DNA from: Primulina eburnea
Lineage: Eukaryota; Streptophyta; Magnoliopsida; Lamiales; Gesneriaceae
Reading direction: 5' to 3'
NCBI RefSeq assembly: GCF_022965805.1
Contig: NW_027331399.1
Location: forward strand, 99,192-163,191
Length of the DNA: 64,000 bases
Below are positions 21,264 to 57,815 of the stretch, piece by piece (positions within the stretch are counted from its first letter, which is position 1; every line of letters starts with the position of its first letter). The translations under genes were made by a program, and so were the position numbers. The notes beneath the pieces are model-generated. The model worked only from the letters and a program-made list of their open reading frames with translations. It was not told the DNA's origin and did not search any database.

Positions 21264-22868
21264 TGTAAGGCCCGAGATTATATCATTTTAATCCGAGATT
21301 ATTTAATTTACGAATTTTGGAAGTATGAATTAAATTCCATAAATTTTGTGATTAATTAGGATTGAAATGGAATTAAAAAGAGTTTTGAGGACTGAATTGC
21401 AAATAGTGAAGAATTCAGGGGCTAAAGTGCAATTATGACTTGAGTGGGACACTTGTCACCACCATGCATTTGGATATATAAAAATACCATTCTTCCTTTA
21501 GATGAAACAGCAAGAACGAAAGAAAGCTTCAAGGAATTCTCAAATTTCTTAATTTGCTTCGAATTTGATTTTATAAGCTCCGTTTATCAGAATTTTGATC
21601 TGAACACCGTTCTGTGATTCCCTCGTCGACAGCTACTACAGGACGTAAGTTTTATTGAGTTCTATTATCATTTGAAATTATGATATTGGAGGAATTATTA
21701 TTTGATCATTATTATGTGTTTTGGGAATACTAGACATTGCATAATCGAAGTCAGATCGAAAAACAGACCGATTATGGAATTGTTATGATTTTCTAATTAT
21801 ATTGATTGGAGATTGGTCAGATTTGGATTATTGATTGATTACAGATTGTATCGGACATGAGTTATGATATGTAATTGATGTCTGTTGATTTGGTATTGAC
21901 GGAGATACTGAGATTGTGCCGTTATGCCGTTGATTTGACTTAAATTTAGATTAATCAGATTCAGTGTTGAATTGAGAATAGAACATTGATATTATGATTC
22001 TCGATATGTCGTTTCAGATTTACAGAGACAGTCTTGATTTCAGAACTGATATTGCTTCAGACCGGGACTACAAACGAAAGGTATAAATAAATGTTGATTC
22101 GGGATTGCACAACTCGAGTTAGGTTTGACTTGAGTTTCCCTAAATCACATACTTTACTTAATTGCATTGATATTTGCAGATTATCAGATTGATATGTTAA
22201 TGTGTTGACTTAGAACAGAGTCAGAGTCCGAGTCTAGGGCAGATCAGCCTAGCTAGGGCAGAACCGCCGAGTCTTTCTCAGAACCGATAAGACTCTAGAC
22301 TTACGGTGTATCGAAGAGCCTTAGATGTAGATCGACGTCTTTCTCAGACACTCGATACAGAATACCAGAGTCTAAATTAGATCGGGATCCCGAGATTTGA
22401 GATAAGATAAGATTAGATCACGAGTCATTGATTCATGTAGTCAGATTGGATACATGTTTTGATGTTTGTTTATGCTTTTATATATGTTTTATATGAATGC
22501 ATTTAATACATTGTTTATACTGGGATATTTATATCTCACCGGAGTTATCCGGCTGTTGTCTTGTTTGTATGTGTGCATGACAACAGGTGGGACAGGTACA
22601 GGGTCACATAGGTGAAGACAGATCGAGATTAGAGTGGTGATACCGGACTTGGATTAGAGCTAGGGTTTGAACACTCGATAGTAGTTGTTGAACCTGAGTA
22701 TGTATGATTGTATATTTTATCAGATTTATACTTTTATACTGATATGTATAGGAGTTTGATTCAATTACCTTCCGTGTTTTAAAAAAAAAATTTAGACCCT
22801 GTTTATTATAATTGATTAATTAGTCCCAATCACGATTAAAGAAGATGATTAGCGTCCGGGTCCCCACA
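21264..22868 (+). repeat. Tek-1 5' LTR
   Basis: 1605 bp. TATA-like GATATATAAAAATA at 21473-21486. Near the 3' end are two hairpins shared with Tek-2 and Tek-3: CCGGA-GTTA-TCCGG (22539-22552) and CTGTTGTC/GACAACAG (22553-22560 with 22579-22586), followed by GTGGG. Ends CCCCACA. Confidence 0.92.
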
Positions 22869-22873
22869 ACAGG

Positions 22874-27701: not shown

Positions 27702-27714
27702 AGAGGGGGAGAAT
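27702..27714 (+). promoter_or_regulatory. Tek-1 polypurine tract
   Basis: AGAGGGGGAGAAT immediately before the 3' LTR, preceded by TTCGAGGACGAAAT, the same context as in Tek-2, Tek-3 and Del-0. Primes plus-strand synthesis. Confidence 0.88.
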
Positions 27715-29206
27715 TGTAAGGCCCGAGATTATATCATTTTAATCCGAGATTATTTAATTTACGAATTTTGGAAGTATGAATTAAATTCCATAAATTTTGT
27801 GATTATTTAGGATTGAAATGGAATTAAAAAGAGTTTTGAGGACTGAATTGCAAATAGTGAAGAATTCAGGGGCTAAAGTGCAATTATGACTTGCGTGGGA
27901 CACTTGTCACCACCATGCATTTGGATATATAAAATACCATTCTTCCTTTAGATGAAACAGCAAGAACGAAAGAAAGCTTCAAGGAATTCTCAAATTTCTT
28001 AATTTGCTTCGAATTTGATTTTATAAGCTCCGGTTATCAGAATTTTGATCTGAACACAGTTCTGTGATTCTCTCGTCGACAGCTACTACAGGACGTAAGT
28101 TTTATTGAGTTCTATTATCATTTGAAATTATGATATTGGAGGAATTATTATTTGATCATTATTATGTGTTCTGGGAATACTAGACATTGCATAATCGAAG
28201 TCAGATCGAAAAACAGACCGATTATGGAATTGTTATGATTTTCTAATTATATTGATTGGAGATTGGTCAGATTTGGATTATTGATTGATTACAGATTGTA
28301 TCGGACATGAGTTATGATTTGTAATTGATGTCTGTTGATTTGGTATTGACGGAGACACTGAGATTGTGCCGTTATGCCGTTGATTTGACTTAAATCCAGA
28401 TTAATCAGATTCAGTGTTGAATTGAGAATAGAACATTGATATTATGATTCTCGATATGTCGTTTCAGATTTACAGAGACAGTCTTGAGTTCAGAACTGAT
28501 ATTGCTTCAGACCGGGACTACAAACGAAAGGTATAAATAAATGTTGATTCGGGATTGCACAACTCGAGTTAGGTTTGACTTGAGTTTCCCAAAATCACAT
28601 ACTTTACTTAATTGCATTGATATTTGCAGATTATCAGATTGATATGTTAATGTGTTGACTTAGAACAGAGTCAGAGTCCGAGTCTAGGGCAGATCAGCCT
28701 AGCTAGGGCAGAACCGCCGAGTCTTTCTCAGAACCGATAAGACTCTAGACTTACGGTGTATCGAAGAGCCTTAGATGTAGATCGACGTCTATCTCAGACA
28801 CTCGATACAGAATACCAGAGTCGAAATTAGATCGGGATCCCTAGATTTGAGATAAGATAAGATTAGATCACGAGTCATTGATTCATGTATTCAGATTGGA
28901 TACATGTTTTGATGTTTGTTTATGCTTTTATATATGTTTTATATGAATGCATTTAATACATTGTTTATACTGGGATATTTATATCTCACCGGAGTTATCC
29001 AGCTGTTGTCTTGTTTGTATGTGTGCATGACATCAGGTGGGACAGGTACAGGGTCACAGAGGTGAAGACAGATCGAGATTAGAGTGGTGATACCGGACTT
29101 GGATTAGAGCTAGGGTTTGAACACTTGATAGTAGTTGTTGAACTTGAGTATGTATGATTAGTCCCAATCACGATTAAAGAAGATGATTAGCGTCCGGGTC
29201 CCCACA
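27715..29206 (+). repeat. Tek-1 3' LTR with internal deletion
   Basis: 1492 bp, very similar to the 5' LTR except for ~112 bp missing near 29158. The lost segment is flanked in the 5' LTR by a short GATTA direct repeat, leaving one copy. One arm of the CTGTTGTC hairpin is mutated here (GACATCAG), as is the CCGG stem. Confidence 0.92.
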
Positions 29207-33745: not shown

Positions 33746-35652
33746 TGTAAGGCTCGAGATTTTTAGTTTTCATTAAAATGATACTCGGAAGAGATGGGGA
33801 TGCATGACGTGCACGGAAAGGAGAAAAGACATGAGAATTAGGGTTTTGCAAGACTGCAACCGCGCTCAAAACAGGAGTGCACCCGCGGTCATGCAATTAT
33901 GGATTTTAGCAAGAAAAGCCAAAGCCATACCGCATCCATGGTGCTACATAGACCGCACCCGTGGTGCATGGACAGAAAGTTGGCACATTTTATTCGTAGC
34001 ATCACCGCACCCGCGGTGTAAGAAGACCGCACCCGCGGTCTTGCAGAGACAGCACCCGCGGTCGACATTTTTGTGAAAATGCTAGGGTTGCCGAAACATG
34101 AGCGCACCCGCGGTGCTGCAGAGACCGCAACCGCGGTGCTGCATGCGAGAAAGCCACTCTTGTTTCTTGTAATGACACATGGCAGGATATATATATAGAT
34201 GTATTGCTGATTCATTCTCTCCCATTTCCAGCAAGAGAGAACCGAGAATCCATGGAAAAGTTCCAAGTTTTCATGGCTTAAAAACTAGATTGTGCAAGAT
34301 TTAGCTGCCTGATTTCAAATCCGAGCTTAGATTATTGATCCTTGCAGTAAGAGCTTCAAAGTAATGTAAGTTTCCTTCAATTCCACCATGATGCAGATTT
34401 TATGAATTGGGGAAATTGTAATATGATAGTTATATTGTGTTCTTGACATAGTAAGCATTGTATATTTGCAAACGAATGGAAGAAATGGTATCGTTTGCAT
34501 TTGTTATGATTTTCAGCATGTCTTGAATGAGAAAGATAGAGAATTCAGAAAAGATATGAGTTTGGGATGTATAGATTATGATGAATATGAATTGAGATTA
34601 TTGATTATTGATATATGATGCGATTTAGATTGATTAGTATCGAGAAAGTACGTCGTTATGCCGTCGATTGTTACCAAGATTGAATATGGATTACATATGA
34701 GTTACTTAGAGTTGGATATTGATAGAAGATATATCAACATTGTCATTTCAGATTTGGATTGACAGATTCGATACCAACTTGAGACTTCGATTTCTGCCTA
34801 CGACACGAAAGGTATAATGCATGTTTTGTTTGGGGAGATACAACTCAAATGAGATCACATTTGAGTTTCCCAACCAAAATCACATACTAGATTTATTGTT
34901 TATCTTGAATTATGATTGTGATTTGTTTATAGAATTTGTATTCAAATATTTGAATTGATTATGCATTGTTTACAGACTGTTAATCATTGCATTTAAGATA
35001 GGGAGTCTTGACAGAACAGTCAAACTTCTAGATGTTCGGTGTATCACAGCGTAGGGGAAGATCAGTCTCCTATTGTAGATGCGGATACAGATTAGGCCGA
35101 AGTCTAGGAATAAGACGTACCGTCACCCCGATTGGGAGGTTAGGTGATAGATCGTCTTATTCACACTGGGATCCCTAGAGTTCTAGTCGAGTCGATCCAG
35201 TCATGATTTGATTCGCATTGCATGTTTATATGATTGTCATTCATAATGGCATGTTTCATATTTTAGATTGATTATATGCATGTATACATGTTTATACTGG
35301 GATTTGTTCTCACCGGAGTTTCCGGCTGTTGTTATGTTGTATGTGTGCAAAACAACAGGTGGGGCAGGATCTGGGTCGAGACAGAGATGAGATCGTGATA
35401 GCGTGGTGACTTCGGGCGCAGCAGAGGACTAGTGGTTTTTAGTAGACTTGGACTATTTATATTGGTATTGTATTAAACACTAGTTGGATTGATATAGTAG
35501 AACAAGACATGTTTGTATGTTTCTAAAATAAATAAAGAACTTATGCTTGTTTACATACATTAGAATTAATGTTGAAAAGCGAAAATTTGACCCACATTTT
35601 TTTTAAATATCCATTTAATCCCAAAGAAAAGAATAGAGCCCGGGTCCCCACA
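33746..35652 (+). repeat. Tek-2 5' LTR
   Basis: 1907 bp. Contains the GC-rich hairpin array at 33877-34137, a TATA box (TATATATATAG, 34187-34197), a TTGAC-AGAACA-GTCAA hairpin near 34998, and near its end CCGGA-GTT-TCCGG (35313-35325) and CTGTTGTT/AACAACAG (35326-35333 with 35351-35358). Ends CCCCACA. Confidence 0.92.
33877..34137 (+). repeat. GC-rich hairpin array (ACCGC-ACCC-GCGGT) in Tek-2 U3
   Basis: About nine full or partial copies: 33877, 33929, 33952, 34014, 34036, 34061, 34102, 34124, plus an imperfect one near 33860. Full copies have 5-bp arms ACCGC/GCGGT around an ACCC loop. The flanking base pair is G-C in one (34035-34050) and C-G in another (34013-34028). It ends ~50 bp upstream of the TATA box. 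The 3' LTR counterpart at about 40249-40485 lacks one unit. Confidence 0.88.
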
Positions 35653-35657
35653 ACAGG

Positions 35658-35669
35658 TGGTATCAGAGC
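35658..35669 (+). promoter_or_regulatory. Tek-2 primer binding site (initiator tRNA-Met)
   Basis: TGGTATCAGAGC, five bases after the LTR end, followed by ~245 bp of leader to the gag ATG at 35915. Confidence 0.92.
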
Positions 35670-40104: not shown

Positions 40105-40117
40105 AGAGGGGGAGAAA
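40105..40117 (+). promoter_or_regulatory. Tek-2 polypurine tract
   Basis: AGAGGGGGAGAAA directly before the 3' LTR at 40118, with TTCGAGGACGAAAT upstream. Confidence 0.88.
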
Positions 40118-41998
40118 TGTAAGGCTCGAGATTTTTAGTTTTCATTAAAATGATACTCGGAAGAGATGGGGATGCATGACGTGCATGGAAAGGAGAAAAG
40201 ACATGAGAATTAGGGTTTTGCAAGACTGCAACCGCGCTCAAAACAGGAGTGCACCCGCGGTCATGCAATTATGGACTTTAGCAAGAAAAGCCGAAGCCAT
40301 ACCGCACCCGCGGTGCATGGACAGAAAGTTGGCACATTTTATTCATAGCATCACCGCACCCGCGGTGTAAGAAGACCGCACCCGCGGTGACAAGACCGCA
40401 CCCGCGGTCGACATTTTGTGAAAATGCTAGGGTTGCCGAAACATGAGCGCACTCGCGGTGCTGCAGAGACCGCACCCACGGTGCTGCATGCGAGAAAGCC
40501 ACTCTTGTTTCTTGTAATGACACATGGCAGGATATATATATAGATGTATTGCTGATCCATTCTCTCCCATTTCCAGCAAGAGAGAACCGAGAATCCATGG
40601 AAAAGTTCCAAGTTTTCATGGCTTAAAAACTAGATTGTGCAAGATTTAGCTGCCTGATTTCAAATCCGAGCTTAGATTATTGATCCTTGCAGTAAGAGCT
40701 TCAAAGTAATGTAAGTTTCCTTCAATTCCACCATGATGCAGATTTTATGAATTGGGGAAATTGTAATATGATAGTTATATTGTGTTCTTGACATAGTAAG
40801 CATTGTATATTTGCAAACGAATGGAAGAAATGGTATCGTTTGCATTTGTTATGATTTTCAGCATGTCTTGAATGAGAAAGATAGAGAATTCAGAAAAGAT
40901 ATGAGTTTGGGATGTATAGATTATGATGAATATGAATTGAGATTATTGATTATTGATATATGATGTGATTTAGATTGATTAGTATCGAGAAAGTACGTCG
41001 TTATGCCGTCGATTGTTACCAAGATTGAATATGGATTACATATGAGTTACTTAGAGTTGGATATTGATAGAAGATATATCAACATTGTCATTTCAGATTT
41101 GGATTGACAGATTCGATACCAACTTGAGACTTCGATTTCTGCCTACGACACGAAAGGTATAATGCATGTTTTGTTTGGGGAGATACAACTCAAATGAGAT
41201 CACATTTGAGTTTCCCAACCAAAATCACATACTAGATTTATTGTTTATCTTGAATTATGATTGTGATTTGTTTATAGAATTTGTATTCAAATCTTTGAAT
41301 TGATTATGCATTGTTTACAGACTATTAATCATTGCATTTAAGATAGGGAGTCTTGACAGAACAGTCAAACTTCTAGATGTTCGGTGTATCACAGCGTAGG
41401 GGAAGATCAGTCTCCTATTGTAGATGCGGATACAGATTAGGCCGAAGTCTAGGAATAAGACGTACCGTCACCCCGATTGGGAGGGTAGGTGATAGATCGT
41501 CTTATTCACACCGGGATCCCTAGAGTTCTAGTCGAGTCGATCCAGTCATGATTTGATTCGCATTGCATGTTTATATGATTGTCATTCATAATGGCATGTT
41601 TCATATTTTAGATTGATTATATGCATGTATACATGTTTATACTGGGATTTGTTCTCACCGGAGTTTCCGGCTGTTGTTATGTCTGTATGTGTGCATAACA
41701 ACAGGTGGGGCAGGATCTGGGTCGAGACAAAGATGAGATCGTGATAGCGTGGTGACTTCGGGCGCAGCAGAGGACTAGTGGTTTTTAGTAGACTTGGACT
41801 ATTTATATTGGTATTGTATTAAACACTAGTTGGATTGATATAGTAGAACAAGACATGTTTGTATGTTTGTAAAATAAATAAAGAACTTATGCTTGTTTAC
41901 ATACATTAGAATTAATGTTGAAAAGCGAAAATTTGACCCACATTTTTTTTAAAGATCCATTTAATCCCAAAGAAAAGAATAGAGCCCGGGTCCCCACA
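40118..41998 (+). repeat. Tek-2 3' LTR
   Basis: 1881 bp. Differences from the 5' LTR cluster in the GC hairpin array, where one ~23-bp unit is absent. The late hairpin reads CTGTTGTTATG with CATAACAACAG (41671-41704), a longer perfect stem than in the 5' copy. Confidence 0.92.
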
Positions 41999-42749
41999 AA
42001 AGATGACTGCAACAAGCAGTGGGATCGCTGCATTTCAGAAAAGCTGCAGTGTACGACTTTCAGAAGAATGTTGACATGACAAACAACAGATATAAAGTTT
42101 CAAATCGTATTCAATATTACTGTTGTAGGCAAAGCCTATAAATAACAGAGAAGAGCAGCTGAGAAACTCTCTGAATCAACCCGATCGATATACTATTCTA
42201 TCAACTGAGCTGTTACTCTGCTGAAATCTTTGCAAATTTCAAAGCTGATGCTTATTTTATACATTCATAGCATTCAAGGCTATACTTCTAGCATACAAGC
42301 ACAAACTGTTATTATTATAATACTTGATCTTGAAGAGATCAGTTGTGCTAAATTATTTCAATCCAATTGAGTACTGTAAACTGGTTCGTAACTAAGAATT
42401 TTAGTTTGGCATTGTTAAGTCCAAAACTGAAGTGGGTCTGTACAACTCTTTGTATCGATGAAAGTCTTTTAGTGAATATCCTATATTTGTGATAGAATGT
42501 GTGACATAGGAGTGTTTGAAATCTACGAACATCCATAAATCTTGTGTCTTCTTATTTCAGTTTTATTCTATCTATCAGTCAGTTTATTTCCGAACTTTTA
42601 TTGTTAACTGATTGATATTGACTTACAAGATTCCAGAGTATCATTTTATCACTAAATTGACACATTAAAAGATAAAAGGTTGCGAAAATTGTTGGTATTT
42701 ATTCAAACCCTATTTCTAAACAATCTTTCACCTTTACCCGATCCTATCA

Positions 42750-47998: not shown

Positions 47999-49490
47999 TG
48001 TAAAGTCTAGGAAATTCTAACTACGTAACTTGACTGCATGCAATCTAGGATTTTGCTAAAAATATGTGTTTAATTATTTTATTGTATGATTATTGCATGA
48101 ACATGTGTTTTATTAGTTTATTAAAGTTTCATGCATAAGGGCTTTCAGTAGTTTTTCGCGCTCAAACGAGGAACGGAGACCAGAGATAATTGAGGAAGAA
48201 TATATTTATTAAATGAGTATTTTGAATTACTTCATATATGGTGTATATAAGTGAGATTTTTTGAAGTTGGGCCTTGGTGGTGTATTTTTACTCGTCGGGT
48301 CATATTTTAAACCGATACATAAATTTTAGCAAGTTGGAGGACTTTTTGAGGGTTCGGACAATATTTTAAAAAACGTACCTAAACGAAATATTTTTTGAGA
48401 GCTTTTTTGGGCTCGATGGGACTAGTTTATTTCTTAATGGGCCTAAAACCTTTTAAACCTCATTATTTTTAAACTAAGGCCCACTAACACTTAGTATTAC
48501 ACCTAAACCCTACAATAAAAACCCTAAACCTAAATTTTATATGATGGTCGCCCCCTTCCTCATTCATCAGCAGCCATCTTCGAAATTCTCCTAGGTTTTC
48601 AAAAAAATAAAAAGCTCCTTCCCTGTCTCTCCAGCGCAAGTTCTACGCATTGGTATCGAAGTTCTTCAGAGTTTATATGCAAATTCACGCCGTGAATCTT
48701 TTTTTTCTCTTCATTCACGCTATTTTATGCTGATGTGTGTGTGTGTGTGTGTTTGCATGAGTAATGCATAGATTTTTATGTTGCATCGATTTTTAACGAA
48801 ATATGCACACACGTTTACATGTAACTCACGCTTTTGTTGTCCTTGTTTAAGGGGATACTGATTTGAGATGCTATGGGTGTTTATATGTTGAGAGTGAAGG
48901 TTTCGAGGTGCTGGAGTCACGAGATGGTCGAGTCTTGGTGAGGGCTGATCGAACCTAAGGTATGCACGTGACGTATGGGACTAGTTCGGGCTTTGGGAGG
49001 AATAGCGGCTGTTGGGGAGTTGAACAGAGCCATGGTGCAGATCCTAAGGGGTCTGAGACGTTGTCCAAGATGGCTCAATCATGGCTGGCCTCAACCTAGG
49101 AGTTGGTCGAGGCGCATTAGTCGAGTAGGATCGGGATATGGCTTGTTTTTGGGTAACTCACGTAGGGCCGAGCGCATGGAGCTATAGGCGTAGCTAGGGT
49201 TGTTCCAGTAAGTCTTCCACAATCTGATCTTGGTCTTAGGTGGCGTTGGTTCAAGTCCGGTTCGAGTTGGTTAGGTCTAGGATCAAATTATGGAGGGCTT
49301 GGTGCATTAGGGTTGTAAAGGAATCTAGGTGTAAAAAATTCCAGAGGGTAGGTGTAAGGCCCGAGATGTTATTACAGTAATTTGAGATTAATCTGAAATG
49401 ATTATAGACAGAACGGATTAGCTGGAGAAAAGTAATGCCAAGATTTTAAGTTGATAAAATGAGATTGTGTAAGAGGGCATGCGAAGCGAG

Positions 49491-49701
49491 ACCGCACCTG
49501 CAGTTGAAGAAGGACCGCACCCGCGGTCGATATTAATGAAATTGTGAAGAGGAGGCCGAAGCCTCACCGCACCCGCGGTGTTAATAGGGACCGCCCCCGC
49601 GGTCTTGACATGTACCGCACCCGCGGTCATGCAATTTCAGAATAGATAAGATTGTCGAACCATGAGCGCACCCGCGGTCTTACACCTACCGCACCCGCGG
49701 T
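49491..49701 (+). repeat. GC-rich hairpin array (ACCGC-ACCC-GCGGT) in Tek-3 U3
   Basis: Seven copies: 49491 (decayed, ACCGCACCTGCAGT), 49514, 49566, 49590 (loop CCCC), 49614, 49666 (GCGC start) and 49688. The outer flanking pair is G-C at 49513/49528 and 49589/49604 and C-G at 49565/49580. It ends ~50 bp before the TATA box, as in Tek-2. Repeated at 55004-55214 in the 3' LTR. Confidence 0.9.
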
Positions 49702-50390
49702 GCGACGTGTTGTGCGAAAATGAGGACACCTCATGACATGCATGCACTGATATATATAGATGATAATTCCTTCGAAAATCATTCAGCAGAAATTGAAAAG
49801 GGTCTGAAGAAGAAAGGAGAAATCCTTACGCCTTTTTCGAGAAATCCGTCCGTCTGATTTTGAATCCGACTTCGATATCGAGTTCCTAGCGACGTAGGCT
49901 ACAACTGGACGTAAGTTTTACTACGTTTTGACATGCTTTGAAATTATGGTATTGTCAGAATTGAATGGAACTCATATATGTTGTTCTTGACATGTTAGAC
50001 AGCGTAGAATCGAAGTCAGATTAAGAAACGGACTGAATATGAACTTGTTATGATATCAGAATAAGATTGAATAAGAATTGATATCCAGTATTGATTGAGT
50101 GGTGTATTGATACTATACTCCTCGATATTGTTCTTGTCAGATCGATATTGACAGGTTTTGAGTTCGAGACTTCGACAGAGTCAGAGTATCAGAAAGAAAG
50201 GTATAAATTAATGTTGTGTTGGGACTGCACAACTCGAGGAAGGTTTGACTCGAGTTTCCCTAAATCACATACTTTGATTCTTGTAATTGATGAGATTGAT
50301 GATTGTAGTCTATTGATTTATAGCCACTGCATGTAATGACTGCTGACTCGCTAGTCATTGACTGATTTGCTTAGATAGTGACTGTATGTA

Positions 50391-50690
50391 TTGATTACTG
50401 AGTCGTTGAGTCACCGGCTGATTCGTCGGGTTATTGACTGATTCGTCTTAGTAGAGGCTGATTCGCCTAGTCACCGGCTGATTCGTCGGGTTATTGACTG
50501 ATTCGTCTTATTATAGGCTGATTCGCCTAGTCAAGGGCTGATTCGTCGGGTTATAGACTGATTCGTCTAAACTTAAGCTGATTCGCTTAATTACAGGCTG
50601 ATTCGTCTGGTTATTGGCTGATTCGCCTAAGTACTGGCTGATTCGTCAGGTTATTGACTGAGTCGTCAATTCTGTGGCTGATTCGCCCAG
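50391..50690 (+). repeat. 20-bp-period mini-hairpin array in Tek-3 LTR
   Basis: Fifteen units in strict 20-bp register, each with CTGATTCG (CTGAGTCG in two). The bases on either side of a constant 6-nt TGATTC pair with each other: for example AAGC/GCTT, TAGAC/GTCTA, ATTGAC/GTCAAT, CTGGC/GTCAG, ATAGGC/GCCTA. More decayed units may precede it from 50341. It lies downstream of the TATA box, so it should be transcribed. The identical register recurs at 55904-56203. Confidence 0.92.
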
Positions 50691-51400
50691 ACACTAATAT
50701 AAGAATTATATCGATGCCGTTTAGGGATTGATCCATTCCTATCGACTGAGATTCGATATAATACCTATATTCAGACATCGGGATCCCTAGGTTAGAGTTG
50801 AGTCGAGTCTGAGACGACGCGTCAGTGGAGTCGAGTCTGACATGACGTGTCGGTTGAGTTGAGTCTGATATGACATGTTGATTTACATTGTTTATGCCAT
50901 TCATGATTATTGAATGTTTGATGTGAATTTATGTTTCTGATTTGAGACATGTTATGAATACTTCTTATATATGCTTTCGTATATGCTTTTATATGACTGC
51001 ATGTTTACATTGTTTATACTGGGATATTTATATCTCACCGGAGTTATCCGGCTGTTGTCTTGTTTTGTATGTGTGCATGACAACAGGTGGGGCTGGATCA
51101 GGGTCAAGAAGAGGATGAGAGATGACGAGTTTAGCGTGGTGATTCCGGACTTGGTAGAGATAGGGTTAGACACATGATATTAGTTGTTAAACCCTAGTTG
51201 AATAAATGTATGTTGTACAGGACTTGTACTTTTATACTGAGATGTATGTTCATGTTTAATATGTAATTTGAGTAAATTACATTACGTTTCCGCTGGGTAT
51301 TTAAAAAAATAAAAAATTAAATTAGACCTTGTTTTATAATTGATTAATTAGTCCCAAATATGATTAAGAACTTGATTAGCGTCCGGGTCCCCACAACAGG

Positions 51401-51682: not shown

Positions 51683-52792
51683 ATGCCTCCTAGACGAATC
51701 CCAGAACAGGGTAGTACATCGAATCCTCCAATGGATGTAACACCGACTCCAATGGAAACCTTGCTGAAGAGGTTTCAGTCATTCAAACCACCCACTCTGA
51801 AAGGTACTGAGACATCAGTCGAGTGTGAGAGTTGGTTAGGAAGCATTGAGTTGCTGTTTGATTCACTGGAGTACAGTGATGAGCGCCGGATTAAATTGAT
51901 TGGGCACCAGTTGCTGGATGTTGCACAAAGCTGGTGGGTTACAATGAAGAGGGCCTTGGAGCAACGAGGTACGATTATTACTTGGGATGTATTTAAAACT
52001 GAATTTTATCAGAGATTTTTCCCAATATCGTACAGAAAGGACAAGGGGGCGGAGTTTGCCAATTTGAGACAGGGTCAGCTGAACATTGAAGAATATGTGA
52101 CCAAGTTCTCTACCTTGTTGAAGTTTGCTCCACATGTGTCCGAAAATGACGAAGCCGTTGCCGATCAGTTCATCAATGGCTTGAATCCCGATATTTTTAC
52201 ATTGGTGAACACAGGGCGACCCAATAACTTTGCTGATGCCATGAATAGAGCAAAGGGCGCTGAAGCAGGCCTGATAAGGCAGAGAGGAGCTGAATTTGTT
52301 CCTCCAGTGTCGAGACCACAGCAACCACTTCCCCGATTCGAGAGTGGTAGTAGCAGTGGTGGAACGAAAGATTTTCTGAAAGCTAGAGGAAAGCAATTTA
52401 AGAAGTCTGGCGGCAGTTCTTCTAGCTCTAGTGGTTCTCAGCAGAGTTATACGGGAGTGTACTGCGGAAATTGTGGAGGGAGACATTCCACTGAACAATG
52501 CCACGGAGTACTTGGTAGCTGCCACTTCTGCCAGCAACAGGGACATTTTTCTAGAGTGTGTCCACAGAGGGGTTCCCAAAGATCCCAGGGAACCGAAGCA
52601 TCTGGATCAGCGGCCCAGTGGAGTAGACGATCAGCTGCCGTTCCTTCATTTCAGCCAGCACCATCTCAGTCACAGCAGAGGCCAGGAGGAAGCCAGACAG
52701 TGGGCCAGCCTCCTAGACAGCAGGCCAGAGTATTTGCTTTGACCGAGGAGCAGGCTCAGGAAGCACCAGATGATGATGTTGCAGGTAACTGA
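51683..52792 (+). CDS. Tek-3 Gag, intact
   Basis: Uninterrupted 369-residue frame, the only complete retroelement protein in the window. MPPRRIPEQGSTSNPPMDVT start; capsid-like domain at residues ~50-155 (ESWLGSIELLFDSLEY, FYQRFFPISYRKDKGAEFAN, GLNPDIFTLVNTGRPNNFAD); serine/glycine linker ~225-250; two zinc knuckles at residues ~261-273 (CGNCGGRHSTEQC) and 280-293 (CHFCQQQGHFSRVC); Q/P-rich tail ending [15 protein letters not shown]. It would assemble particles and bind the element RNA. The stop falls exactly at the gag-protease border, where Tek-1 and Tek-2 read on into pol, so Gag is uncoupled from pol. The ATG is the first after the PBS in this frame and matches Tek-1. Confidence 0.93.
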   Translation: MPPRRIPEQGSTSNPPMDVTPTPMETLLKRFQSFKPPTLKGTETSVECESWLGSIELLFDSLEYSDERRIKLIGHQLLDVAQSWWVTMKRALEQRGTIITWDVFKTEFYQRFFPISYRKDKGAEFANLRQGQLNIEEYVTKFSTLLKFAPHVSENDEAVADQFINGLNPDIFTLVNTGRPNNFADAMNRAKGAEAGLIRQRGAEFVPPVSRPQQPLPRFESGSSSGGTKDFLKARGKQFKKSGGSSSSSSGSQQSYTGVYCGNCGGRHSTEQCHGVLGSCHFCQQQGHFSRVCPQRGSQRSQGTEASGSAAQWSRRSAAVPSFQPAPSQSQQRPGGSQTVGQPPRQQARVFALTEEQAQEAPDDDVAGN

Positions 52793-54840
52793 TTTGTTTG
52801 ATTATCCTGCATATGTATTGAGGGATATCGGTGCTTCACATGCTTTTAGTTCTGAGAGATTTGCATTGATGCATGCATTATCTGTTGAGTCTTTATTTAC
52901 TGTAGTAGTGTTTCTTTCCTTGAGAAAAGATCTTGTATCAGTGATTTCTGTTAGATCTTGTATACTACAGTAGGATGAGAATGAGATCGAGTTAGATTGT
53001 GTGGTAGATGGTATTGTACTGGTGTTCTATGATTTTAGAACTGCATTACTGATATTGATATGCTGATCAAGTACATAGCTACCATAGATTAATTCCAGAA
53101 GATGGTGAGAATTAAACCTGAGATGATCAAGAAATGAATATTGTACGATAAGAATTCTAGACTGAGAATTCCTTTGATATTCGTACTAGCTATGACTCGA
53201 TTATTACAGAAAGGAGCAGAGTGACTGCTTATGTATTCAGTTGATTTACTGAAGTTGAGTCTATCATAGGCTGATTTACCAATGATAAGAAAGTTCTTGA
53301 TGTTTTCCCAGATAAGATTTCAGACCTAATTTCAATCAGAGAGATTGATTTTAGTCTTGAACTGATATGAGAACCTGTTGATATAGTACATCCTGGTTGA
53401 GACAGATTGCATTCAGGATGTGTTATATCTGAAGATGATATATTCGTTGATTTTCACGGAATTAAACCGTGATTAGTCAGCTGAGGTTGACATCAGTATT
53501 AGACAGTTGCGGTTTATGAGTTTAATATGTTTTGAATTCTGATTGAATATTGATGTTATTCTGAATATGTGCTTGAGATAGATTATAGACAATGGAGATT
53601 ATATTGTACAGTCCGAACCAGAGTTGATTTCGAATCGATAGCAGTTTAAAAAGCTGATTAGAATATTTAGAACTCAATATCGATAGTCAGAACAGAGTGT
53701 CGATCAGAGTAACAGATACGTGATTTTGTATTTTGTATGAGATTGATTATTCTGTGATGTCAGATGTGTCAGAATTGTACAGCAAAGATTGATAGTGATA
53801 GTCAGAGCCGAATACCAGGTAGGTATTTCCTCTTTACTTTATGTTATTAACTGATTTGTGTATATCAAATAGTTCGAATCAGAAAGAACAGATATTGTTA
53901 GAAGCTTACAGTCATGGATTCAGTGTTCAGTCTGATGACTGAGACTGTATTATATTCGAACAGATAGTGGTGATATAGACAGATGAGATCAGTTATAACA
54001 GAATTGTATTGAAATGTTGGCAGAAATTGTACTGATATGTCTAAATTGCTAACAGAAAAGATAGAAAGATAGAAATCAGAAGATTATTACAGATTTTGTA
54101 TAGTTCTGAATGGAAATGGGAGTACATTTCTATGGCTTTCGTAATGAAATTACCGCCTTTTCTTTAGATTATGATATGATATGATTATGATTGACAGATT
54201 ATTCAATCTATATCTATCAGTTGTACCAGATTACGTACAAACAGAACCAGATGACATAGATCAATGTCAAAGAAATAGTCAGATTGACGAGAATGCAAGA
54301 ATTAGATGATATCAGATTGTGATTTTGACGGAGTTGTACTTGTGATAGATTATATCATAAGCTCTCTTGTGCAGATTTATTACAGATTGACAGATAGTCA
54401 GAGTATATTATCAGATATTGACAGATAAATGTAGAGCTTTGGTACTGGATGTTAGTACTAGTTAATATAGATTATTGTCATGACATGATTGATTGTATGA
54501 CTGTAGCTATCAAGATAGTTCAGAATGAACAGATTTAAGAAACCAACGTTGGATAATAACGATTGATAATTGAAGATGAAGATTGATTACGTTCTCGATT
54601 GGGATAAACAGATAGGATAACAACTACAGATGGTATTGTTTTGTTATAGATTGCAGATTGGCATATACGGATGATGTATAGCCAATGTTGCGAGATTTAC
54701 TTTATCAGAGCTAGTTGTAGAGATAGAATTTGATATGAGATTGAAATTTCAGAACAGATTCATTGAGATGAGTTTTTAATTTAAACTCTGTATACATTTC
54801 TTCTGATAATCTGAATTGATTACTTGCGAGTTCGAGGACG
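52793..54840 (+). pseudogene. Tek-3 pol relic, collinear but lacking RT and RNase H
   Basis: Decayed matches to Tek-1 pol appear in order: protease (YPAYVLRDIGASHAFSSERF, 52800-52860), its C-terminal part (53000-53240), the protease-RT linker (53230-53370), then the post-RNase H linker (53575-53720, like [16 protein letters not shown]), integrase finger and start (54040-54170, like [11 protein letters not shown]), and integrase core traces (54430-54480). RT and RNase H are absent between ~53400 and ~53560. Stops and indels in every frame. Decay is far beyond that seen in the flanking LTRs or gag. Confidence 0.82.
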
Positions 54841-54851
54841 AACTCAGATCT

Positions 54852-54865
54852 AAGAGGGGGAGAAA
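54852..54865 (+). promoter_or_regulatory. Tek-3 polypurine tract
   Basis: AAGAGGGGGAGAAA just before the 3' LTR, preceded by GTTCGAGGACGAACTC. Preserved despite the loss of pol, as expected if the element still replicates with borrowed RT. Confidence 0.88.
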
Positions 54866-56908
54866 TGTAAGGCCCGAGATGTTATTACAGTAATTTGAGA
54901 TTAATCTGAAATGATTATAGACAGAACGGATTAGCTGGAGAAAAGTAATGCCAAGATTTTAAGTTGATAAAATGAGATTGTGTAAGAGGGCATGCGAAGC
55001 GAGACCGCACCTGCAGTTGAAGAAGGACCGCACCCGCGGTCGATATTAATGAAATTGTGAAGAGGAGGCCGAAGCCTCACCGCACCCGCGGTGTTAATAG
55101 GGACCGCCCCCGCGGTCTTGACATGTACCGCACCCGCGGTCATGCAATTTCAGAATAGATAAGATTGTCGAACCATGAGCGCACCCGCGGTCTTACACCT
55201 ACCGCACCCGCGGTGCGACGTGTTGTGCGAAAATGAGGACACCTCATGACATGCATGCACTGATATATATAGATGATAATTCCTTCGAAAATCATTCAGC
55301 AGAAATTGAAAAGGGTCTGAAGAAGAAAGGAGAAAATCCTTACGCCTTTTTCGAGAAATCCGTCCGTCTGATTTTGAATCCGACTTCGATATCGAGTTCC
55401 TAGCGACGTAGGCTACAACTGGACGTAAGTTTTACTACGTTTTGACATGCTTTGAAATTATGGTATTGTCAGAATTGAATGGAACTCATATATGTTGTTC
55501 TTGACATGTTAGACAGCGTAGAATCGAAGTCAGATTAAGAAACGGACTGAATATGAACTTGTTATGATATCAGAATAAGATTGAATAAGAATTGATATCC
55601 AGTATTGATTGAGTGGTGTATTGATACTATACTCCTCGATATTGTTCTTGTCAGATCGATATTGACAGGTTTTGAGTTCGAGACTTCGACAGAGTCAGAG
55701 TATCAGAAAGAAAGGTATAAATTAATGTTGTGTTGGGACTGCACAACTCGAGGAAGGTTTGACTCGAGTTTCCCTAAATCACATACTTTGATTCTTGTAA
55801 TTGATGAGATTGATGATTGTAGTCTATTGATTTATAGCCACTGCATGTAATGACTGCTGACTCGCTAGTCATTGACTGATTTGCTTAGATAGTGACTGTA
55901 TGTATTGATTACTGAGTCGTTGAGTCACCGGCTGATTCGTCGGGTTATTGACTGATTCGTCTTAGTAGAGGCTGATTCGCCTAGTCACCGGCTGATTCGT
56001 CGGGTTATTGACTGATTCGTCTTATTATAGGCTGATTCGCCTAGTCACCGGCTGATTCGTCGGGTTATAGACTGATTCGTCTAAACTTAAGCTGATTCGC
56101 TTAATTACAGGCTGATTCGTCTGGTTATTGGCTGATTCGCCTAAGTACTGGCTGATTCGTCAGGTTATTGACTGAGTCGTCAATTCTGTGGCTGATTCGC
56201 CCAGACACTGATATAAGAATTATATCGATGCCGTTTAGGGATTGATCCATTCCTATCGACTGAGATTCGATATAATACCTATATTCAGACATCGGGATCC
56301 CTAGGTTAGAGTTGAGTCGAGTCTGAGACGACGCGTCAGTGGAGTCGAGTCTGAGATGACGTGTCGGTTGAGTTGAGTCTGATATGACATGTTGATTTAC
56401 ATTGTTTATGCCATTCATGATTATTGAATGTTTGATATGAATTTATGTTTCTGATTTGAGACATGTTATGAATACTTCTTATATATGCTTTCGTATATGC
56501 TTTTATATGACTGCATGTTTACATTGTTTATACTGGGATATTTATATCTCATCGGAGTTATCCGGCTGTTGTCTTGTTTTGTATGTGTGCATGACAACAG
56601 GTGGGGCTGGATCAGGGTTAAGAAGAGGATGAGAGATGACGAGTTTAGCGTGGTGATTCCGGACTTGGTAGAGATAGGGTTAGACACATGATATTAGTTG
56701 TTAAACCCTAGTTGAATAAATGTATGTTGTACAGGACTTGTACTTTTATACTGAGATGTATGCTCATGTTTAATATGTAATTTGAGTAAATTACATTACG
56801 TTTCCGCTGGGTATTTTAAAAAAAAAAAATTAAATTAGACCCTGTTTTATAATTGATTAATTAGTCCCAAATATGATTAAGAACTTGATTAGCGTCCGGG
56901 TCCCCACA
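54866..56908 (+). repeat. Tek-3 3' LTR
   Basis: 2043 bp, same length as the 5' LTR, with the hairpin array (55004-55214) and mini-hairpin array (55904-56203). One array unit differs (CCGGC here, GGGC at 50531-50540 in the 5' LTR); the 3' version pairs better. Confidence 0.93.
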
Positions 56909-57815
56909 ACAGGATTGGGTTTTAAGGGTGTTATTACGGCTGGAATCGTGTTGTTTAGGGCCTAGTAGGGTCTGTATAAGTCGTGGTTAAACTTTGGGAA
57001 ATTTTTGTTAAGTTTCGAGTTAAAACTGGGACCCCGATCCATGTTTTAAAATGAATCGTGTAAGTTATTTAACGAGCTTGAGGTTATGTCTAAGAATCGA
57101 TTATAAATATTTTTGAGGTGTTTTAAGGAGTTTGGTTGGTTTCGGGTCGAAATTTTGAGGCCCCGGGGTACAATGGTCAATTAGGGTTTCTAGGGTCAAA
57201 ATGATATGTTTTGAGGTGTTTTAAGGAGTTTGGTTGGTTTTGGGTCGAAATTTTGAGGTCCAGGAGTATAGTCAATTAGGGTTTCTAGAGGCAAAATAGT
57301 CATTTTGCACTCGGGTCGAGTTAGAAGTCCTAGCAGTGCCTTGATCACAAATTGACATGTTTTAATGTATATGTTATCACGAATATGATGTTTTATGGAA
57401 ATATGAAAAATACATTGCATGCTTGATTTTAAGAAAATTTACGTATATGCATGATTTTTATAAGTGATGAAAATGATGATATGCTTTAAAGAATGGGAGT
57501 TGGTTGTGACTAATACGAACACGAACACAAACATGTAAGGCCAAGGCTCGGTGGATGGGTAATATTGTCGCAGATGTACCCGCCGCCGGGTACCACAGTT
57601 ATAGGTAGATGGATTAATCGATTGGAGCTGATACGAAAGTCACAACTAATGATCTGATTTCAAATAAAGAAAATGAACACGTATATGTTGATATGATGAG
57701 ACATGTTTTGGACGCGTTATGCATTGACACTATGTGTTTAGGTTCATGCTTTTAAGATTATGGAGTTTATTTTAAGTACAATACTTTTCACTGTTGCATG
57801 TTATGTATATGTAAT

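Follow-up and report, generated by a model that had tools for sequence, protein, structure and literature searches.

Covarying arrays of 20-nucleotide hairpins in the long terminal repeats of a TR-GAG-like retrotransposon of Primulina eburnea

The window analysed here, a 64,000-nucleotide (nt) stretch of the Primulina eburnea genome, contains three related long terminal repeat (LTR) elements, E1, E2 and E3, and the subject of this work is an array of small hairpins that lies in both LTRs of E3 (Table 1). The array consists of fourteen units (2–15) and a degenerate unit 1, each with the form stem-TGATTC-stem. CTGATTCG is found at 50418, 50438 and so on to 50678 (50418+20k), and CTGAGTCG at 50398 and 50658; a motif recurring every 20 bases had been read from the letters alone in the original prediction, which placed it one base too high and named only one array, the copy in the 3' LTR being an addition to it. 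Tandem Repeats Finder gives periods of 20, 40 and 60, reflecting a 60-bp higher-order repeat with three unit types. Some units are weaker than others, as had been noticed before: units 3, 6 and 12 have three contiguous pairs and unit 1 has two, unit 15 has three contiguous pairs plus four across a bulge, and unit 8 is broken in the 5'-LTR copy and intact in the 3'-LTR copy. A further weak unit was seen by eye at about 50382, and the degenerate units upstream of the array are similar in arrays elsewhere in the genome.

The two arms of the units vary together. Among 140 combinations of phase and loop, the longest mean stem (4.36) was obtained with a loop of 6 in the TGATTC phase, the runner-up reaching 3.71. 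Permutation of the right arms gave P values of 0.00005–0.009 over the statistics tried, and of 0.0003–0.003 within higher-order-repeat classes. In the 3'-LTR array (14 units, 12 distinct) two-sided changes were found at five of six pairs, with 13 two-sided cells against 5.3 expected, a number that none of 500 shuffles reached and below which the slid controls remained; further pair types in this array were not above shuffles (266 of 500).

Scanning the 812 Mb P. eburnea genome for the paired core pattern gave 12,949 matches, and none for its reversed control; the 18-nt motif of the last unit has 1,418 exact copies. We aligned 82 arrays, namely the two of the window and 80 from contig C1 only, of which 20 came from the first listed places (some elements contributing both LTRs) and 60 carried the exact terminal motif. 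Counting degenerate first units, each of these arrays holds 8–17 units, and successive units lie exactly 20 nt apart in 941 of 960 steps under a chaining procedure that penalises other steps.

Among the 31 common unit types, the survivors of a core filter applied to 38 types present in at least four arrays, stem positions 2–5 are paired in 99 cells versus 83.3 (standard deviation (sd) 2.9) by permutation, a comparison that ignores descent. The pairing of positions 6 and 7, which lie outside the stem, did not exceed permutation in the same types, and the hairpin energies sum to -129 versus -70.5 (sd 7.5) kcal/mol. Descent was taken into account with a tree of 62 distinct arrays, from the 64 of 82 with a recognisable first unit and at least seven units, on which events were counted in the 13 of 16 unit columns with at least 20 sequences each. 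Eight compensatory two-sided events occurred on this tree versus 0.98 in the null, a count that 0 of 300 nulls reached, and other two-sided events numbered one versus 1.6; slid pairings gave 0, 0, 0 and 2 compensatory events. When the stem columns were left out of tree building, 16 compensatory events and one other were found versus 1.6 and 3.5 (0 of 500 nulls reached the compensatory count), with 0–1 compensatory and 7–10 other events in slid pairings. Four of the eight events fell in a unit without any other change. Four were G-C to A-T, which two deaminations could also produce, and the remaining compensatory events alone are still above the null (4 versus 0.41, 0 of 500). The genome-wide alignment that had been proposed as a check therefore yields compensatory events in excess of the null, and the claim that the arms change in step beyond what a tandem repeat would give holds in both the right-arm permutation and the tree. 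A plain tandem repeat is ruled out by these same tests, and the observation of a covarying 20-nt hairpin array in E3 is confirmed.

Changes in the C-TGATTC-G core numbered 12 on internal and 64 on tip branches, compared with 115 and 159 in the rest of the unit (Fisher, P = 1.4e-5). The difference was also seen without C>T and G>A changes (6/26 internal/tip in the core versus 84/105 elsewhere, P = 0.006) and with transversions alone (4/19 versus 57/81, P = 0.036). Given how few core changes lie on internal branches compared with the remainder of the unit, the core accumulates mutations in dead copies and seldom changes in transmitted ones; the loop and its closing C-G pair are constrained while the element replicates. 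Among the common types, G.T cells number 16 (25.6 by permutation) and A.C cells 2 (12.9), so both are depleted, A.C much more strongly, which favours the + strand as the acting RNA.

Several observations weigh against a maintained RNA structure. Single-arm changes are far commoner than the eight compensatory doubles (77 breaking, 37 keeping and 27 restoring a pair), the pair-breaking changes are not depleted (77 versus 70 in the null), and their depletion on internal relative to tip branches is a trend (P = 0.06). In a spanning tree of the common unit types single-arm changes also outnumber two-sided ones, and a mismatch at stem position 4 is found in widespread types such as CACCGGC/GTCTGGT, which 39 of 82 arrays contain. 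An exchange of units between arrays can look like a double change on one branch and remains a confounder. Thermodynamics does not pick a strand, since the predicted unit-hairpin probability is 0.44 on the plus and 0.55 on the minus strand and the fold against shuffles has a z score of -3.3 on + and -3.2 on -. On the question of a compensatory excess over single-arm changes, on which the original prediction was to stand or fall, the result is thus divided: single-arm changes are the more numerous, and the eight doubles lie eightfold above the null. We read this as free decay of dead copies, with a weaker pairing constraint in replicating lineages. Pairing between several units competes with the unit hairpins in the global fold, and an RNAalifold consensus contains seven of nine unit hairpins without a distance limit, four of nine at 60 nt and six of nine at 25 nt.

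Some related LTR families show the hairpin design again, built from different stems and loops. E1 has seven AGAWC loop sites at the corresponding position of its LTR, with on average 3.4 flanking pairs versus 0.7 (P = 1e-5, for a motif chosen post hoc), and three of these hairpins are spaced 19 and 20 nt; AGAWC elsewhere in the window also has flanking pairs somewhat above average (1.07 versus 0.66), and counting any loop-6 hairpin in E1 gave no significant result (81 of 500 shuffles reach it). E2 has TTGAC[AGAACA]GTCAA at the same place, its sites as a set not being significant (P = 0.12), and the copies of both E1 and E2 are too alike for a covariation test. We compared these with 20 LTRs carrying the 26-nt motif CTCACCGGAGTTNTCCGGCTGTTGTY, which lies downstream and has 13,020 exact genome copies; the LTRs were hand-picked from 100 listed places, none of them among the E3 arrays. 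The three hairpins of L305 (loops AGATGT/AGAGGT/AGAGGT) lie at spacings of 20 and 20, L303 has four (AGGATAT/AGGACAT/GGATAT/GGAGAT) spaced 21, 15 and 20, and L302 has two TGATTC hairpins spaced 20, the second of which fails the strict test only by its T.G closing pair. E2-like LTRs have, by eye, one hairpin with a differing stem: TTGGC/GCCAA (L292, L304), TTGAC/GTCAA (E2, L294, L298) or GTTTGAC/GTCAGAC (L296). Many of the loops, not all, start with NGA.

Strict chains of at least two hairpins at roughly 20 nt were found in 4 of 22 LTRs (E1, E3, L303 and L305), that is in 4 of 10 clusters, versus 0.12 expected, and in 0 of 22 control stretches. Counting against a general module, 18 of 22 LTRs have no strict chain, including the E1 relatives L295, L299 and L300. 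Folding and hairpin counts were compared in one representative of each of the 10 clusters, at up to 300 nt each, with 25 approximately dinucleotide-preserving shuffles; GGGATCC[CT] is present in 19 of 20 sampled LTRs, and L288, which is without GGGATCC, was dropped from the original 23. Upstream of GGGATCC, all ten representatives fold better than their shuffles (mean z -4.46, all below -2), the following stretch having a mean z of -1.90 with six of ten below -1.5; in several families (L286, L287 and L291) inspection by eye traces this signal to different hairpins of greater length. Mini-hairpins in the ten families number 49 versus 28.7 in the module, 14 of them from E3 alone, and the control stretch is raised too (35 versus 24.7).

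The Gag and Pol domains of the window elements are of the Ty3/gypsy type. Chromodomain matches are weak in E1 and E2 (5.8e-4 and 1.1e-3, below the Pfam cut-off), E3 being without the integrase end, and the best Gag matches listed are from Gesneriaceae (Henckelia, Dorcoceras and Primulina). The E3 Gag has two zinc knuckles of the CCHC type by their pattern, TGGTATCAGAGC just 3' of the 5' LTR is what we take to be an iMet-type primer site, and no significant reverse transcriptase (RT)/ribonuclease H (RNase H) match was obtained between 52800 and 54860 in a tblastn search with the E1 and E2 Pol as queries. With two LTRs around a gag-only coding region, E3 is by its sequence a gag-only, TR-GAG-like and possibly chromovirus-like Ty3/gypsy element. 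A target-site duplication match is not evident by eye at its ends (49336–49352 and 56914–56930).

Elsewhere in the genome, same-strand neighbouring arrays within 25 kb (n = 32, from 99 of 100 listed places) are separated by 4.05–6.45 kb in 27 cases and by 13.8–19.4 kb in five. The shorter spacing matches the length of gag-only elements such as E3 (5.5 kb) and suggests that large arrays sit on elements of gag-only size; the spacing of the pol-bearing E1 is itself 6.45 kb, so that this measure is not enough by itself to rule out pol in every case. The array-bearing element L285 is also without the RT/RNase H part; its gag 3' part is duplicated internally. The proposed restriction of the array to an element with gag and no pol therefore applies to the large array, and not to the pol-bearing E1 and E2, in which smaller sets of hairpins occupy the corresponding LTR position.

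Two TATA-like boxes lie upstream of the array, in keeping with its predicted position 3' of a TATA box, and being downstream of them the array is probably part of the element RNA. The shared GTAAGTTT and ACAACAG|GTGGGG suggest an LTR intron (49911–51086) common to the three families and enclosing the array, in which case only unspliced RNA would carry it. The hairpin at 50231–50256 is paired in 32 of 32 cells with one pair changed on both sides, and its covariation is not beyond shuffles (96–126 of 500 reach it). The hairpins at 51038–51086 are paired in 70 of 72 cells with one two-sided pair (19 of 500 shuffles reach this); the innermost pair of CTGTTGTC/GACAACAG is C-G or T-A across the three families. 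The long E3 hairpin that follows the array, at 50694–50774, has TATCGA/TCGATA arms, with similar ones visible by eye in other families, and its tip is a 6-nt loop, TGATCC (50729–50734), on a 7-bp stem.

Table 1. Coordinates of the elements, arrays and LTR features in the window
Feature	Position	Strand	Remarks
E1 LTRs	near 21264-22873; 27703-29159 (aligned part)		
E2 LTRs	33746-35658 and 40117-41999		
E3 5' LTR	49353-51400	+	99.4% identity to 54866-56913; TG..CA ends
TATA-like box 1	49750-49759	+	GATATATA; conserved in the three window LTR families; about 650 nt upstream of array
Donor-like GTAAGT	49911-49916	+	GTAAGTTT in all three families, 3' of TATA-like box
TATA-like box 2	50197-50208	+	GAAAGGTATAA; common to three families (alignment)
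Conserved hairpin	50231-50256	+	AACTCGAG/CTCGAGTT; in E2 AACTCAAA/TTTGAGTT
Degenerate upstream units	50343-50397	+	One-mismatch cores at 50343 and 50362
Mini-hairpin array	50398-50690	+	15 units x 20 nt, loop TGATTC
Long imperfect hairpin	50694-50774	+	TTATATCGA/TCGATATAA; adjoins array; z only -1.3
Palindrome	50780-50787	+	GGGATCCC; all three window families
CCGG/CCGG and CTGTTGTC/GACAACAG hairpins	51038-51086	+	End in acceptor-like ACAACAG|GTGGGG
E3 gag	51683-52792	+	Intact open reading frame, 369 amino acids, Retrotrans_gag 5.7e-19
E3 remainder	52800-54860	+	Protease and integrase remnants
E3 3' LTR	54866-56913	+	LTR-LTR identity 99.4%
3'-LTR array copy	55912-56204	+	Same array, second LTR

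The array looks like a real RNA-structure module that most likely acts in the + strand leader RNA. An array of many RNA sites for protein docking would fit the constant loop, the free and mostly paired stems, the fixed register and the high copy number. Our leading explanation, which we hold tentatively, is that a transcribed, non-coding segment of the LTR acts as an RNA element and offers a multivalent, loop-recognised protein site, with Gag nucleocapsid as the likeliest partner, for packaging. Each 20-nt unit would fold into a short stem with a near-constant six-base loop on a C-G closing pair, and a transcript would carry roughly 8–17 near-identical binding sites in fixed register, degenerate first units included. 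The stem sequence would be free as long as it is paired, the loop and closing pair being what is recognised. The acting molecule would be + strand RNA and the binder a protein; if that protein is Gag nucleocapsid, the outcome may be preferential packaging of unspliced genomic RNA. Gag nucleocapsid appears likeliest because the element keeps only gag and because retroviral knuckle proteins read short unpaired loop bases, and a role in Gag binding or packaging is plausible.

The main rival to Gag is a host RNA factor, notably one of splicing or export. Binding of such a factor, with a structured segment of the putative LTR intron controlling splicing, retention or export, is possible though unlikely. 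In its favour, the array, or what corresponds to it, is flanked in each of the three window families by GTAAGTTT upstream and the acceptor-like site downstream, the acceptor-like site lies within a hairpin with a two-sided change, and CTGAT fits the plant branch-point consensus. Against it, GTAAGT is preceded by C or T as the last exon base, and some 400 nt separate the end of the array from the acceptor-like site, a long distance for a branch point. BARE has two TATA boxes for separate RNA pools and separates such pools by splicing (PMC3735527).

We consider it quite unlikely that the array is a functionless mutational by-product, in which unequal exchange spreads units and template switching during reverse transcription makes the arms complementary. 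Unit number does differ among arrays, some both-arm changes accompany a further change in the unit, and breaking changes in old copies are not selected against. Template switching, however, would make G.U at stem position 2 Watson-Crick, and whole unit classes retain G.U; moreover, 16 of 17 two-arm events are compensatory versus 0–1 of 7–11 per slid control, and transmitted lineages show constraint on both the loop and its closing pair. Repeated sites for a DNA-binding protein, as in an enhancer or insulator, with the symmetry due to chance or dimer binding, would account for the constant 8-bp core in tandem, and 12 clustered Su(Hw) sites act as the insulator of Drosophila gypsy (PMC9917439). 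This reading is very unlikely, as the flanks vary and are yet complementary above chance, a property that a DNA-reading protein would not require, A.C is depleted more strongly than G.T, and other families change the core and keep the hairpins. The dimerisation element of the original prediction, acting through kissing loops or an extended duplex, is highly improbable despite quasi-palindromic units and the GGGATCCC palindrome nearby in three of three window families, for the loop UGAUUC is not self-complementary, as a dimer-initiation site would be, and the computed dimer gain (-5.2 kcal/mol) is below that of three control stretches (-7.6, -8.0 and -14.8).

Extending the Gag-docking reading to the whole family, lineage-specific loops might form an RNA-Gag recognition code, gag-only elements having expanded 1–4 sites to as many as 17 for avidity to particles with the RT and integrase of others; we regard this as rather unlikely.

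Structured leaders, TR-GAGs and repeat-bearing LTRs are known already. The array resembles retroviral and retrotransposon leaders such as psi, DIS and the BARE leader, in which the 5' RNA is structured and non-coding and proteins bind its hairpin loops; to our knowledge, the leaders described so far combine a small number of dissimilar stem-loops, and none repeats a single mini-hairpin up to 17 times in a 20-nt register. With the gypsy Su(Hw) insulator the array shares about a dozen clustered protein sites (putative in E3) in a Ty3/gypsy element, but the gypsy sites are, as far as we know, DNA sites without covarying arms. The Xist A-repeat is likewise made of tandem repeats folding into small hairpins, in a host long non-coding RNA and with longer units. 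Plant TR-GAG elements have two LTRs around a single gag reading frame, as E3 does, and some are mobile though non-autonomous; the part of PMC9784723 available to us does not mention a hairpin array in them. BARE2 cannot produce Gag, and BARE1 packages it (PMC3735527). A literature search, in which neighbouring topics were judged by titles and the starts of abstracts, found no description of tandem hairpins in LTR retrotransposons, and as far as could be checked a covarying 20-nt hairpin array has not previously been described as an LTR module. In our judgement little is known of how plant LTR retrotransposons select their own RNA, or of how gag-only parasites compete for the enzymes of others; a periodic, covarying and multivalent array in over a thousand copies, together with sister families in which loop and copy number vary, makes this question directly testable.

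Other searches gave minor results. Peptides predicted from the array found nothing in the protein database, and the acceptor-hairpin motif occurred in 0 viral contigs. Scans with the array pattern returned 17 viral stretches and at least 119 stretches in genome contigs, four of the 80 listed having two matches; all are presumed to be chance matches. A hammerhead or retrozyme was rejected on inspection by eye only, which showed no core of that kind. Between 49300 and 57000 no Rfam family scored above its gathering score, so a known RNA family was rejected; the three sub-threshold matches are two snR75-like ones downstream and an osmY-like one (E 0.99) from the last base of the 3'-LTR array. The snR75-like matches overlap three 28-bp repeats with small hairpins, for example GACA[TGACG]TGTC, at 50796–50878 and 56310–56392. 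The U3 parts of E3 and E2 (49495–49703, 55010–55216, 33880–34140 and 40353–40413) contain many copies of ACCGCACCCGCGGT, a short palindrome (ACCGC/GCGGT) whose arms are constant and which is thus more like a DNA-binding site.
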